Position numbers and translations under genes: made by a program. 64,000 bases of DNA from Scenedesmus sp. ARA3 (Eukaryota > Chlorophyta > Chlorophyceae > Sphaeropleales > Scenedesmaceae): positions 32,241-96,240 of the forward strand of contig RWJK01001878.1 of NCBI GenBank assembly GCA_004335835.1. The letters run 5' to 3'. Positions within the stretch are counted from its first letter, which is position 1, and the number at the start of each line of letters is the position of its first letter. Below the pieces are notes generated by a model. The model was not told the DNA's origin. It was given only the letters and a program-made list of their open reading frames with translations, and made no database searches. This document shows, one piece after another, positions 1 through 60,281 of the stretch.

Positions 1-1364
1 ACGGCTTTACGTTTTGACGTGGTGCATGGAGCGCCGCAGTTGCCTTCCCATCAGGTAGCATGCACGTGGCACATCATACAAGGCGGGTGGGTAACCCCCA
101 CCTGCTGCCTGGTGAAGGCGGTGAGGGGGTCTGGGTGGTCTACCCCTCACCAATAGAGAGGCAATAACAGTCGTAGTTTCTGCTCCGTACGGGGCGCGGT
201 TGCCGATGCCGATGACAAGGTATGGCTAACAAGCAGACGATTAATATTATTATCACACAAAGCGGTGTCCTGCTTAACGCGTACAGCCAACGCGTACAGC
301 CAACATACAAACGCGGTTCACCACGCTGCACCAAGCAGCCAAGCTGCCACATTGCGCCACGAAGCCTCCAAGCCAACAACCCAGCAGATCAAGCCAGGCG
401 CGCCGGCACATGCCTCATCGCCTCGTTGCCTGCTGTCCTGCAGGAGTGCAGCGCAATATGCTGCATTGTGCTGCTGCAATGCGTGTTCCCTGCAATTTTT
501 TTATACAGCGCGCAGGGCGCCACATCAACGCATCATCGTCAACTGCTGCTGCCCTTCCGCTTGCGGCTGGATCTGCTGGGCTGCTGCTCGCTGTACATGC
601 TGTCTATGTATGTCTCCAGCTCGTCCCCATCTCCATACCCCTCCCCTTCCAGTGGCGGCAGCTGCAAGTGCTCGTCAGGGGGCGTGTCCTACAAGCAGCA
701 TTCAGAGGGAAGCAGCAGGTTTGTGCACATGAGCGTCACAGCAACACCTCCAGAGCGTGCAAGGCAGCCGGCCCCACCCCCAGCCAGTGAGTAACTGAGT
801 GACTACCCAAGCAGCTCTGCAGCTCCTGGGTAGGCTAAGGCTAAGAAGGCGTGTGTGGCCAGCGGCGGCGCCCCTGGGCTCCACACCTCTACCCGACCCC
901 CAGCCACCAAGTCTCACGACTTCGATGCATGCAGCAGCTGGCAACAGCGCTGCAGACAGCAAAACCGCTGTCGACATAGTCTGGCTGCTCGATGCATGCA
1001 GCAGCTGCAGCAGAACCCTCTAATAACACACCTTTGGCTCGATGCATGCAGCAGCTGGCAACCACGCTGCAGACAGCACCACCGCCCCTCAACACAGCCA
1101 CACCACCAACATCTGAACAGCACTGGCGCCCCAAACCATGCAGCAGCACCGTGACACACTGCCACATCCACTCACCACGAAGCGGCCGCCCTGATGCACC
1201 ACAAAGTACTCGTCCATCAAGCCTCCAGCGCCAGCAGCAGCAGCGCCCCAGCCGCCGCGTCGGTGGCCTTGCCTGTCTAGGGCCCTGGCCACGTCAAACA
1301 GACCCTCCAAGTAATTGGTGCATGCAGCAGCTAGCAACAGCGCTGCAGACAGCAGAACCGCCCC
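1..1364. other. 3' flank of TRF4-like gene, repeat-rich
   Basis: No convincing gene is seen. Short copies of a unit starting gcatgcagcagctggcaac occur near 926, 992, 1045 and 1320. From about 1041 they belong to a roughly 270-bp tandem unit that also contains a copy of the last exon of the neighbouring minus-strand gene. Open frames here are short and lack recognisable domains. A further 3' exon of the poly(A) polymerase gene could lie here, but I cannot define one. Confidence 0.5.
1148..1320 (-). repeat. Echo copy of TRF4 last exon
   Basis: Closely matches 1416-1586, which encodes NYLEGLFDVARALDRQGHRR and the following Gly/Ala-rich segment. Both belong to a tandem unit of about 270 bp. A handful of substitutions separate the copies. 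Confidence 0.85.
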
Positions 1365-4300
1365 TCAACAAAGCCAAGCAATGAACACGCAATCAGCACT
1401 GCCGCCCGAAACCACGCAGCACACACTCCCACATCCACCCACCACAAAGCGGCCGCCCTGCTGCACCACAAAGTACTCGTCCATCAAGCCTCCAGCACCA
1501 GCAGCAGCAGCGCCCCAGCCGCCGCGCCGGTGGCCCTGCCGGTCTAGGGCCCTCGCCACATCAAACAGACCTTCCAGGTAATTGATGCGGCCGCTGCTGC
1601 TGCCCCTGCTGGATTGTGCGAGGGACTCCAGCCGCCGCGCTGCTTTGCTGAAGGCCATCTGCACAGCGATGATGCGGTAGCTGCCAGAGGCCACGTCGCG
1701 GCCTGCAGCAGCAGCAGCAGCAGCAGGGCAGCCAGTGGTTGGTACGCAGCTCTGTGAGAGTCCATTGGAAAAACAATTTTAACGGTGTCATCATGGCAGG
1801 GGTGCAGCAGCCGCTGAAGTGGCTGTCACTGGGTGAATCAATGCAGCCGCGCCAAGCTGTCCCTTAGGAGCAACGGTTGTATAGTTGCAAGAGCGTAACA
1901 TACAGGGCAGATACTCACCTGTGAGTGGGGCTTCTAGGATGCACCGCCCAGAGCTGTTCTTAGGTGGGGCGACAGCTGCACAAAATACATCCATAATACG
2001 AAGTTATCATGAGGTAGTTGCAAGGGTTCATGCTCACCTGTGAGGGGGTCTTCCAGTATGAGCCGCCCTGAGCTGTCGCCTAGGTGCGACAGCTGTGAGC
2101 GCGCCACACAGCCGCCCAGCTGCACCGACACAGCGTCCTGCAAGCAACATACATGACCAGACATGAATGGCACACGATGTCTGGTGTCCTTGTTTAAAAT
2201 CAAAGACAGCATGCAGAAGATAGCCTCCCGACAGGACACCGCAGCGACCAGTTTTGCGTCTTTCTGACCATTTGTGTTTGATTGATTTGAGACATTGTGT
2301 TTGAGTACAGGGTGTCAGCTAGGCCCCCTCAGGCTCCGTCCCTCACTCTGTGCTACAAAATCTTGGCTGTCTGAATTGTCACTACAAAACATCACAATAG
2401 GCAGCATGGCAGCTACATTGCGCACTATCTGTTGCAGCATGGTATGCACAGCACAATGCACTTCACTTGATCACATGATGGCTTTGCCACACAGCGTGAA
2501 GACCATAGATGGGCAGCTGCTGCTCGTGGGGGACTGCCAAAGCAGCAAGCTCAAGCACAGCAGCAGGAAACGATGCCCTGTTGCTTTTATTACAGCATCT
2601 TATCAATACTACTTGTAACACGCTTCTTCTGCCTCACTGCTGAGCAAGCTGACGTTCTTATGCTCACCCTGTGCACGTCAAAGTCGTCCCCGAAGCGCAC
2701 CAGGAAGCTGTACAGCGTCTCCCCTAGGTCAAACACGTCATTGCCGTCCTGTCAGCAGCAGCAGCAGCAGCAGCAGATCAGCAGCAGCAGCAGATCAGCA
2801 GCAGCATAGCGCAGCTGATGGATGCCAGACAGCTGTGTTAAATGGCGCTGCCGTACAGTTCCGACATACAGCTGCTCACAAGTGTACACCTGCAGCCAGC
2901 CTGGCTCTTGCGCTGAAATCAGATGTTCACACCCAGGTTCACACCCAGATTCACACCCAAACTCACCCGCAGCTCGTCCATGATGTGTGCCAGCACCATG
3001 TTGGTGAGAGCAAAGCTGCTGATGCCGCATTACACCCTGCTGCAAGAGTTCACACCCAAGTTCACACTCAACTTCACACCCTACTTCACACCCATTCTCA
3101 CCCGCAGCTCGTCCATGATGTGTGCCAGCACCATGTTGGTCAGCGCAAAGCTGCTGATGCCGCCATTGGCCACCTCGTTGAGCCCGCAGCTGCGCAGGTA
3201 CACCTTGAGCACCAGCACCAGCGGAGCTAGGGAAGGGTACAGGCCAATCTGCACATAGCAGCAGCAGCAAGATGCATGAGGACGTGAGGCGAAAGCAACG
3301 AGCATGTGTACACCGTGAGCACCAGCACCAACGAAGCTAGCGGAGGGTACAGGCCGATCTGCACGCAACAGCAGCAGCAGCAGCAGCAGCAGCAGCAGCA
3401 GCAGCAGCAGCAGCAGCAGGAGCAGCAAGGTACATGAGGATGCAAGGCAATGGCAGGAGCATGTGTACACCTTGAGACCAGCACCAGCGGCGCCAGCTGG
3501 TTTGCAGAATCAGACGTAGTCTGAAAGGGCCGGCCACACTCCAACCACAACACACCTGCTGCGCAATGTAGTCTGCTGCGCGTGGGCCGCTGCTGTCTCC
3601 CAGGCTGATTCTGCCAGCATGCATCTGTGTGTCTCAGCTTCCGGAGGTTGTGCAGAAGGATTCTGTGCTCACCTATTGTGCGATGTAGTTTGCCGCGCGC
3701 CGCCCGCTGGTGTCGCCCAGGCTTATGCCAGTGCAGAAGCGCAACCCACAACCCAATTTGGAAGCACATACAATGCAACCTGCACACCTGCTGCGCGATG
3801 TAGTTTGCTGCGCGTGGGCCGCTGGTGTCACCCAGGCTGATGTCTGCCACCACGCGGCTGTTGGTCTCCAGCTTGATCAGAGGGATGCGCGCGGTGCGGA
3901 TGATGGTCATCTTGCTGATGGACAGCTTCTTCTGCCTGCAACCACATATGTAAAAGGACATGTTTGAGATGCATGTGCTGCTGTTGGCTGCTGCCTGTGG
4001 TGCGTGGCAGCACTAGCCTATTCTGGCAATGTCCACAGTGCGCTTTGCTGTTGCTGCAGACGAATGTTTGCTCTGTCAGTGCTGCTGCTACATCATCTGG
4101 CGAATGTCATTGCTGATGAAAAAATGCCAAGCATCCACGGTTGATGCTGCGCCTGCTGTTGGTGCTGCCAGCACCGCTGCTGCTGCTGCTGCTGCTGCTG
4201 CTTCAGATCTCTGGAAGCACACTCACTTGCGCAGCGCTGCTGCAATGCGGTCCAGGGCCCTGTATACCACTTTCTTGTCATTGTGGCTAAAACCGCCAGT

Positions 4301-60030: not shown

Positions 60031-60097
60031 GGCCGTGTGGCGGGGTTTGGAGCATCTGCTGCTGCTGCTGCTGCTGCTGCTGGCAGCTGTTGCAGCA

Positions 60098-60281
60098 GCA
60101 GGTGGCTGGAGGGAGGGCTCTGTGTGTGCGGCGCGGCGGCCCCGAAGGTCAGCAAAGTGTGTCTGGAAAGGGGGCGATTGGCGTTGAGCTGGGCCTGCCT
60201 GTGGAAGTGTACGGCCCTGAGAGCAGCATGACGGGCATCTGCGCGGCAGCGATTGAGTACGTGAAGGGCTTCGACAAGTAA
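60098..60281 (+). repeat. Echo of ACLA 3' end, including stop
   Basis: After the ACLA stop, this copy repeats VRRGGP, then [20 protein letters not shown] and the stop codon. The middle (LAAMKAVGA) has decayed. Confidence 0.93.

Follow-up and report, generated by a model that had tools for sequence, protein, structure and literature searches.

Many genes in the draft genome of the green alga Scenedesmus sp. ARA3 carry partial copies of their own exon edges in the adjoining introns or flanks. We examined these copies in a 64-kb stretch of contig RWJK01001878.1 (hereafter the window), part of an 87.3-Mb assembly in 1567 contigs, and at 28 further loci of this genome. The copies lie in direct orientation, are in excess at exon edges and lose similarity in a step at the splice consensus; their early differences from the exon are mainly synonymous, many diverged copies carry disabling changes, and one locus is also found in an independent contig. 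Among the origins that we weighed, we tentatively lean towards the view that most copies are genuine scars, left where diverged versions of one gene (alleles or haplotypes) were joined at the DNA level. With slightly less assurance, we suggest that a process of this kind, perhaps acting across the Scenedesmaceae, repeatedly joins gene versions that are alike in their exons, so leaving exon-edge copies that layer introns and form a dated record.

Exon-edge copies are in excess over chance

An earlier note on the window had described same-orientation duplicates of exon edges in many unrelated genes. A first self-alignment of the window (self-BLAST, E ≤ 1e-4, dust on) gave 55 pairs, 53 of them direct at 78–660 bp, two far apart and none inverted. 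Later scoring with N removed gave 53 local direct, no inverted and 11 far pairs, while five dinucleotide shuffles of the window in 400-bp blocks gave no pair of any kind. With N kept, 54 local pairs formed 27 arrays between positions 922 and 62440. A gene finder self-trained on the window and the other loci placed 10 gene models in the window, some of which are probably fusions and one of which is a fragment at the window end. Against these models, 25 of the 27 arrays touched an exon edge (14.2 expected; reached in none of 1000 random placements), and 21 did so when only internal splice edges were counted (12.9 expected; 1 of 1000).

The 28 other loci, about 10 kb each, comprised 20 taken at fixed steps along the contig list and eight hand-picked from other contigs, and with the window amounted to 319 kb. 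Arrays were present in 26 of them (L005 and L008 had none), and 84 of their 106 arrays touched an exon edge (55.9 expected), or 78 for internal splice edges only (50.9 expected), neither count being reached in 1000 placements. Over the whole 319 kb there were 281 local direct, four inverted and 26 far pairs. Among the 281, a splice edge was involved in 155 (93.4 expected), a gene end in 14 (9.7) and an exon in 57 (50.2); intron-only pairs numbered 36 (80.6 expected) and intergenic pairs 19 (47.1). The exon calls behind these counts are predictions, and a copy of an exon may itself be called an exon: the first gene model had mistaken several copies for exons, and both copies were called coding in 47 of the 281 pairs, neither in 63.

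The shuffles and shifted placements together rule out pure chance. The duplicates described earlier are thus confirmed in the sequence, and the data support a repeated, genome-wide occurrence at the exon edges of unrelated genes, with an excess of exon-edge arrays in the window and the 28 loci alike, although some of them could still stem from faulty assembly. The details of that note held in part. Copies do lie mostly on the intron side of their exon, at acceptors (117 upstream, 32 downstream) as at donors (91 downstream, 46 upstream), and the splice site is usually kept in them (GT in 79/102, AG in 99/118). The count of nine affected genes in 13 could not be matched exactly, eight of our 10 models carrying an array, and the range of 1148 to 60281 was slightly too narrow, as copies reach 922 and 60341.

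The ATP-citrate lyase gene carries 14 copies

The strongest case is the gene for ATP-citrate lyase subunit A (54955–60030, forward strand), in which three of seven donors, four of seven acceptors and the stop end have been copied. Its eight exons (54955–55092, 55271–55408, 55996–56085, 56504–56615, 57305–57477, 58062–58278, 59213–59389 and 59792–60030) were curated by hand against PDB 6hxi and give a clean 427-aa frame with GT-AG introns, and the copy count rests on these curated exons, free of predicted-exon calls. The uncurated model matched Pfam Citrate_bind (4.3e-119) and PDB 6hxi_A (6.5e-107). By eye, 425 of the 427 residues equal those of the closest database protein, UniRef A0A383VJY3 of Tetradesmus obliquus, and both residues that differ fall in the tail of exon 4, the part copied in the intron (56504–56745).

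All copies are on the forward strand; mismatches are given for first, second and third codon positions and shifts in bp. The 3′ edge of exon 4 is copied with its donor at 56671–56745 (shift 118; 2, 1 and 3 mismatches of 21 each; two gaps) and again at 56788–56860 (shift 242; 6, 2 and 3 of 24, 23 and 23). Exon 5 has three copies of its 5′ edge, at 56988–57054 with an acceptor (shift −302; 1, 1 and 3 of 17, 18 and 17), at 57095–57185 (shift −195; 1, 1 and 5 of 25, 26 and 25) and, decayed, at 57199–57281 (shift −91; 3, 6 and 6 of 22, 23 and 22; two gaps). The copy of its 3′ edge at 57560–57630 is 97% identical over 71 bp (shift 147) and ends at GTGAGC, beyond which its flank matches no better than unrelated flanks do. 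The 5′ edge of exon 6 is copied at 57824–57898, starting at ACAG (92% over 75 bp, shift −234), and its 3′ edge at 58406–58620 together with intron sequence (shift 235; 2, 0 and 6 of 36 each; 13/107 noncoding sites) and at 58634–58746 (shift 463; 0, 1 and 6 of 36 each). Copies of the exon-7 5′ edge lie at 58918–59010 (shift −275; 1, 0 and 7 of 24, 25 and 24) and 59077–59160 (shift −124; 1, 0 and 4 of 24, 25 and 24), and those of the exon-8 5′ edge at 59543–59617 (shift −229; 0, 0 and 6 of 18, 19 and 18; two gaps) and 59636–59689 (shift −136; 3, 0 and 5 of 11, 12 and 11). The end of the last exon, with stop codon and 3′ flank, recurs at 60120–60341 (shift 251; 7, 7 and 12 of 54 each; 12/60 noncoding sites) as a nearly whole tandem unit.

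Divergence, said earlier to grow with distance from the exon, does not always do so: of the two exon-6 3′-edge copies, the nearer one (235 bp) has 8/108 coding sites changed and the farther one (463 bp) 7/108. Tail copies lie on the donor side and head copies on the acceptor side, and the arrangement expected of intron gain by tandem duplication (Rogers), with the head of the downstream exon at the start of the intron and the tail of the upstream exon at its end, was not found in this gene. Introns 5 and 6 (57478–59212) can be read as intron-in-intron layers of about 175–235 bp each. Paired nested insertion of a whole intron with exon flanks was considered in view of an excess of two-sided introns (see below) but not adopted: in intron 6 the left spacers are alike (0.80–0.84) and the right ones are not (0.60–0.62).

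Young copies consist of edge, spacer and edge

The stretch that aligns between adjacent copies usually falls short of the shift. We divided its length by the shift in 180 such pairs, and this ratio was below 0.8 in 77/125 exon-containing and 36/55 other pairs, 0.8–1.2 in 15/125 and 5/55 (20/180, all ages) and 1.2–1.8 in 20/125 and 4/55. The 84 adjacent exon pairs with a ratio below 0.95 had medians of 71.5 bp aligned and 75 bp of spacer. Of the 38 adjacent pairs at ≥90% identity, 35 had a ratio below 0.8 and three a higher one, with none at 0.8–1.2; the 23 exon pairs among them comprised 21 edge-spacer-edge arrangements, two longer arrays and no whole tandem unit. Young copies thus consist of edge, spacer and edge, and in older arrays the spacers are often related.

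Similarity ends close to the splice site. Over 220 edge-copy pairs aligned without gaps, donor identity was 0.75–0.93 in the last 10 exon bases and 0.79–0.85 at +1 to +3, then 0.66 at +4, 0.80 at +5, 0.52 at +7 and 0.33 at +30; the acceptor profile, likewise ungapped, resembles it, with a drop just past the splice consensus. For internal exons with one coding copy, alignments ended 0 to +12 bp outside the exon in 27/64 donor and 23/87 acceptor pairs and inside the exon in 6/64 and 10/87, and extended more than 100 bp as arrays in 15/64 and 27/87. By-eye inspection of the 19 pairs with ≥93% identity, ≥40 bp and a ratio below 0.95 placed eight clearly and three probably with a start or end at the splice consensus and left three unclear; two lay in triplet repeats of the L31 gene and three were minisatellite-like (window 60370, L016 6608 and L018 4758). 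Junction microhomology showed a small excess only (0.67 versus 0.27 and 0.54 versus 0.27 bases; 63 pairs).

The flanks beyond the splice site were compared with gaps, each copy flank being set against the real flank of its own edge and against 100 real flanks unrelated to it (P ≤ 0.05). A related intron flank was found for 42/84 acceptor and 35/65 donor copies (77/149), against 5% expected by chance, with no detectable relation in 42/84 and 30/65. An idea that the spacer is never duplicated was dropped as a general rule, as ungapped and windowed identity had overstated the break and the gapped test relates about half of the flanks. Median flank z fell with rising exon divergence, from 2.24 through 2.25 and 1.75 to 1.25 at acceptors and from 3.57 through 3.20 and 1.50 to 1.65 at donors. 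In a comparison with shuffled sequence, no flank of 19 pairs at ≥93% identity reached z ≥ 3, although in one pair a single flank was untestable, and the unrelated donor flanks include those of the best exon matches (0/46 mismatches at L021, 2/65 at window 57477). At acceptors, the 42 flanks without a relation are poor in A (0.10) and rich in T (0.35), as real acceptors are, in contrast to other intronic GCAG sites (A 0.21–0.24, T 0.22–0.24). The composition of these flanks suggests true intron ends, belonging either to copies that have diverged strongly or to a different version of the intron.

These data bear directly on ordinary short tandem duplication, which might occur everywhere, be harmless when it crosses a splice site because the extra part is spliced out, and stay visible longer there as selection keeps one copy. 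Such duplication would give the direct orientation, the related flanks in half of the copies, the rarity of copies without a splice-site end, and the splice sites lost and frameshifts gained in copies. A part of the copies is well explained in this way, such as that of the last exon at 60120–60341, whose array as a whole (59869–60341) comes close to one complete unit and agrees with neutral decay. As a general source we consider it unlikely. A young copy should keep its intron part nearly unchanged, and none of the 23 young exon pairs, nor any of all 38, has a ratio of 0.8–1.2. At an exon-part divergence of ≤5%, intron identity reached 0.85 or more in just 6/40 edge rows. Intron-only pairs also fall below expectation, overall and at ≥90% identity (7 versus 17.4 expected), and young copies show an excess of synonymous differences. 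The mechanism offered in the earlier note, a tandem duplication with one breakpoint in an exon and one in an intron, accordingly suits the half of the copies with a related flank, but the whole unit that it predicts is absent from young pairs.

Copies seem to decay, and one is present in an independent contig

We compared 118 copies (2368 codons) with their exons, having dropped copies modelled as exons, and binned 114 of them by divergence. Copies less than 8% diverged (n = 26) had 53 synonymous and 21 nonsynonymous codon changes, no stops and two frameshifts, whereas those more than 20% diverged (n = 17) had 87 and 122, with two stops and 18 frameshifts, and so approach random change. A stop or frameshift was present in 36/118 copies and neither in 82, and splice dinucleotides were retained about as often as bases of the exon part. 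As synonymous differences come early and frameshifts later, a copy seems to start allele-like and then decay. Mismatches by codon position numbered 27, 21 and 71 in ATP-citrate lyase and 381, 311 and 774 in other genes, and the third-position excess persists after base composition is allowed for (207 observed, 104 expected). Changes private to one copy (12, 10 and 17 in ATP-citrate lyase; 126, 107 and 190 elsewhere) weaken this excess, part of which is expected from copies made at different times, and strong coding selection on the copies was rejected.

An allele-like start would also be expected if the assembly had chained contigs of two diverged haplotypes where a conserved exon meets a diverged intron, creating false local duplications. 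Mis-assembly of this type, with seemingly duplicated exons among its products, is known from diploid assemblies (PMC2864568) and would explain the exon-edge ends, the synonymous differences and the genuine splice context. Runs of N from 50 to several kb, some of them CAG-flanked, could be mate-pair scaffolding. Primary shifts are two-peaked, at 100–160 and 220–250 bp, and these peaks resemble the 101-bp reads and 248-bp inserts of one T. obliquus assembly, which also used 4.1-kb mate pairs and GapFiller (PMC5255914), although the assembly type of the window may differ.

Several observations make mis-assembly an unlikely explanation for the copies at large. The 36 copies with a stop or frameshift cannot be working alleles, and they show the same shift peaks and the same range of spacing as intact ones (median shift 139, against 146 and 186 for intact copies). 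In 20/125 adjacent exon pairs the ratio of 1.2–1.8 denotes related spacers, and N occurs inside only one of the 27 window arrays. Protein databases were queried with two open frames that span copy and spacer. The frame at 24630–25040 covers an exon 5′ edge and its upstream copy in the gene model with a DUF1995 match (24695–24856, forward strand; 88.9%, shift 110), and a database protein, P0134, is identical to it at 136/137 aa over copy, spacer and exon. P0134 derives from two short Logan contigs and continues upstream where the window frame starts after a stop, which suggests that it is probably from another strain or haplotype. Logan contigs are assembled from k-mers of raw reads, so the copy-spacer-exon order at this locus exists in DNA and the copies are not purely an artefact.

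The second frame, 57094–57489, retrieved 13 proteins; they covered at most 53% of the query and in no case the ATP-citrate lyase copies, so that this search is uninformative on artefact. By eye, P0128 (Logan) and P0125 (JGI) appear to have, upstream of ATP-citrate lyase exon 5, a decayed duplicate of the start of that exon, with 11/16 and 8/13 residues matching. Independent support is therefore one firm and two soft cases, short of genome-wide proof. As P0125 and P0128 come from related sources and seem to carry a similar copy, the process, proposed earlier to be recurrent and genome-specific, is doubtfully the latter.

Possible joining between diverged gene versions

In the origin that we tentatively favour, joining between diverged versions of a gene, exons would be the best-shared stretches between versions and introns far more diverged. 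Repair of a break in or beside an intron, or out-of-register recombination of two versions, could then leave a version-A exon, a short piece of version-A intron, then the final 30–150 bp of the exon from version B followed by the intron of that version, with the mirror image on the acceptor side. The splice sites beside the full exon would be untouched, so that the extra piece would be spliced out and then decay, and later exchange between edge copies would duplicate the spacer and build edge-spacer-edge-spacer-edge arrays. We infer the allelic source, the repair route and the tolerance of the copies through splicing from the patterns described above. Joining of this kind accounts for the ends at exon edges, the edge-spacer-edge form of young copies, their synonymous start, their true splice context and the half-related flanks; the scarcity of intron-only copies would follow because joins between diverged introns are hard to see. 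It would require introns to diverge faster than synonymous sites. The synonymous pattern would fit a match to another allele, and one residue of the first exon-4 copy is Thr, as in UniRef A0A383VJY3, where the window exon has Asn.

A number of points weigh against joining between gene versions. The flank relation in about half of the copies is also what ordinary tandem duplication predicts; the share of related flanks at acceptors barely drops with divergence (5/8, 15/28, 12/23, 10/25), and the composition test on the donor side gave no contrast to background. Private changes in ATP-citrate lyase are not clearly different from neutral, and the second exon-4 copy has Asn, the same as the window exon. 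The two-peaked shift lacks an explanation. A second haplotype was not seen, ATP-citrate lyase being a single locus in the assembly, and the P0134 intron agrees with the window, which means that introns are not diverged everywhere. PacBio assemblies of T. obliquus of 208 Mb (PMC5552973) and 172 Mb (PMC7590803) against about 109 Mb from short reads (PMC5255914) would fit separately assembled haplotypes, as we read these sizes. Other T. obliquus assemblies measure 95–110 Mb, two of them in 17 pieces (PMC12571836), so doubled sizes are not general.

An improbable alternative is templated insertion, in which a break in an intron anneals GTGAG or TGCAG to the real splice site and copies the adjoining exon by theta-type end joining, perhaps from RNA. 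It would yield direct edge-spacer-edge copies anchored on a short motif at one end and variable at the other, and three stretches of spacer and flank had no match elsewhere in the genome in a search that skips simple repeats and common words. It does not predict the related flanks of about half of the copies, and it leaves unexplained the choice of exon edges, the synonymous differences of young copies and the acceptor-like unrelated flanks. A mobile, introner-like element was rejected, as three stretches matched only their own place (one also the copied exon edge), with no recurrence. That the copies are functional alternative exon edges under selection is very improbable: the third-position excess beyond base composition favours it, but 36/118 copies are disabled, splice dinucleotides are kept no better than the exon part, inner ends inspected by eye have no matching splice site, and the peptides encoded by the copies are absent from UniRef A0A383VJY3.

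Introns with copies and relation to known systems

Copies occur in 83 of 337 modelled introns (15 two-sided, 68 one-sided; 254 without), with two-sided introns in excess (odds ratio 3.8, p 9e-4). As supposed in the earlier note, introns are longer where copies are present (median 292 bp with none, 390 bp one-sided, 539 bp two-sided), yet a long intron also gives more room for copies. No evidence was found for the further idea that copies seed new introns or exons. If the copies are real genome-wide, a share of introns as large as this holds them, most with a splice site that the spliceosome must ignore, and they would form a dense set of natural decoy splice sites, add to intron length and record joins between diverged gene versions. 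If they are mostly artefact, gene models of Scenedesmus sp. ARA3 and similar drafts contain false exons.

Tandem exon duplication, as in mutually exclusive exons, also repeats exon sequence in an intron; here, usually only the edge is repeated and the copies decay. Stwintrons are introns nested in introns, and some introns here can be read as similar layers, but here each layer carries exon-edge copies. Intron gain by tandem duplication and small duplications made by repair are already known. The ATP2A1 and potato RdRp cases likewise involve a short same-orientation duplication with splice signals, and the potato case also copies an intron-exon structure (PMC4974935); here, existing introns grow longer through partial copying that happens repeatedly, with no new intron in evidence. 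Small tandem duplications from break repair, through CST/Pol alpha-primase fill-in and end joining, are also short, direct and local, and the available portion of that account describes no splice-site end (PMC8355091), whereas the young copies here are edge-spacer-edge. False segmental duplication by haplotype mis-assembly similarly yields adjacent exon-containing near-copies with allele-like differences (PMC2864568); the present case departs from it in its many disabled copies and in one locus that an independent contig also contains. A literature search over titles and the openings of abstracts found no description of genome-wide partial exon-edge copies ending near splice sites, which is weak evidence of absence, as subscription literature was thinly covered.

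Other arrays and repeats in the window

Seven of the 10 window models were submitted to Pfam, with matches to poly(A) polymerase, ribosomal protein L31, DUF1995, RCC1, chlorophyll-binding, NDUFA5, HAD hydrolase and ATP-citrate lyase. On the reverse strand, five arrays lie in the poly(A)-polymerase-like model g0 (922–3874), one in g2, which matches ribosomal protein L31 (18611–19009, including a 50-N run at 18810–18859), one at an end of g6, not submitted to Pfam (45914–46132), and two in the HAD-like hydrolase model g7 (51047–52500). On the forward strand there is one in g1, also not submitted (10465–11361), four in the DUF1995 model g3 (23492–25493), the pair at 24695–24856 among them, and three in g5, probably several fused genes (32809–40827). 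Two minisatellite-like arrays, at 60370–60567 (48 bp × 4.1) and 62037–62440 (52 bp × 6.5), touch no predicted exon edge. Triplet runs (CAG, GCA, CTG and one CTT) are very frequent, for example at 30016–30116 and 63901–64000; in the models some of them code for runs of glutamine or alanine, and some border N runs.

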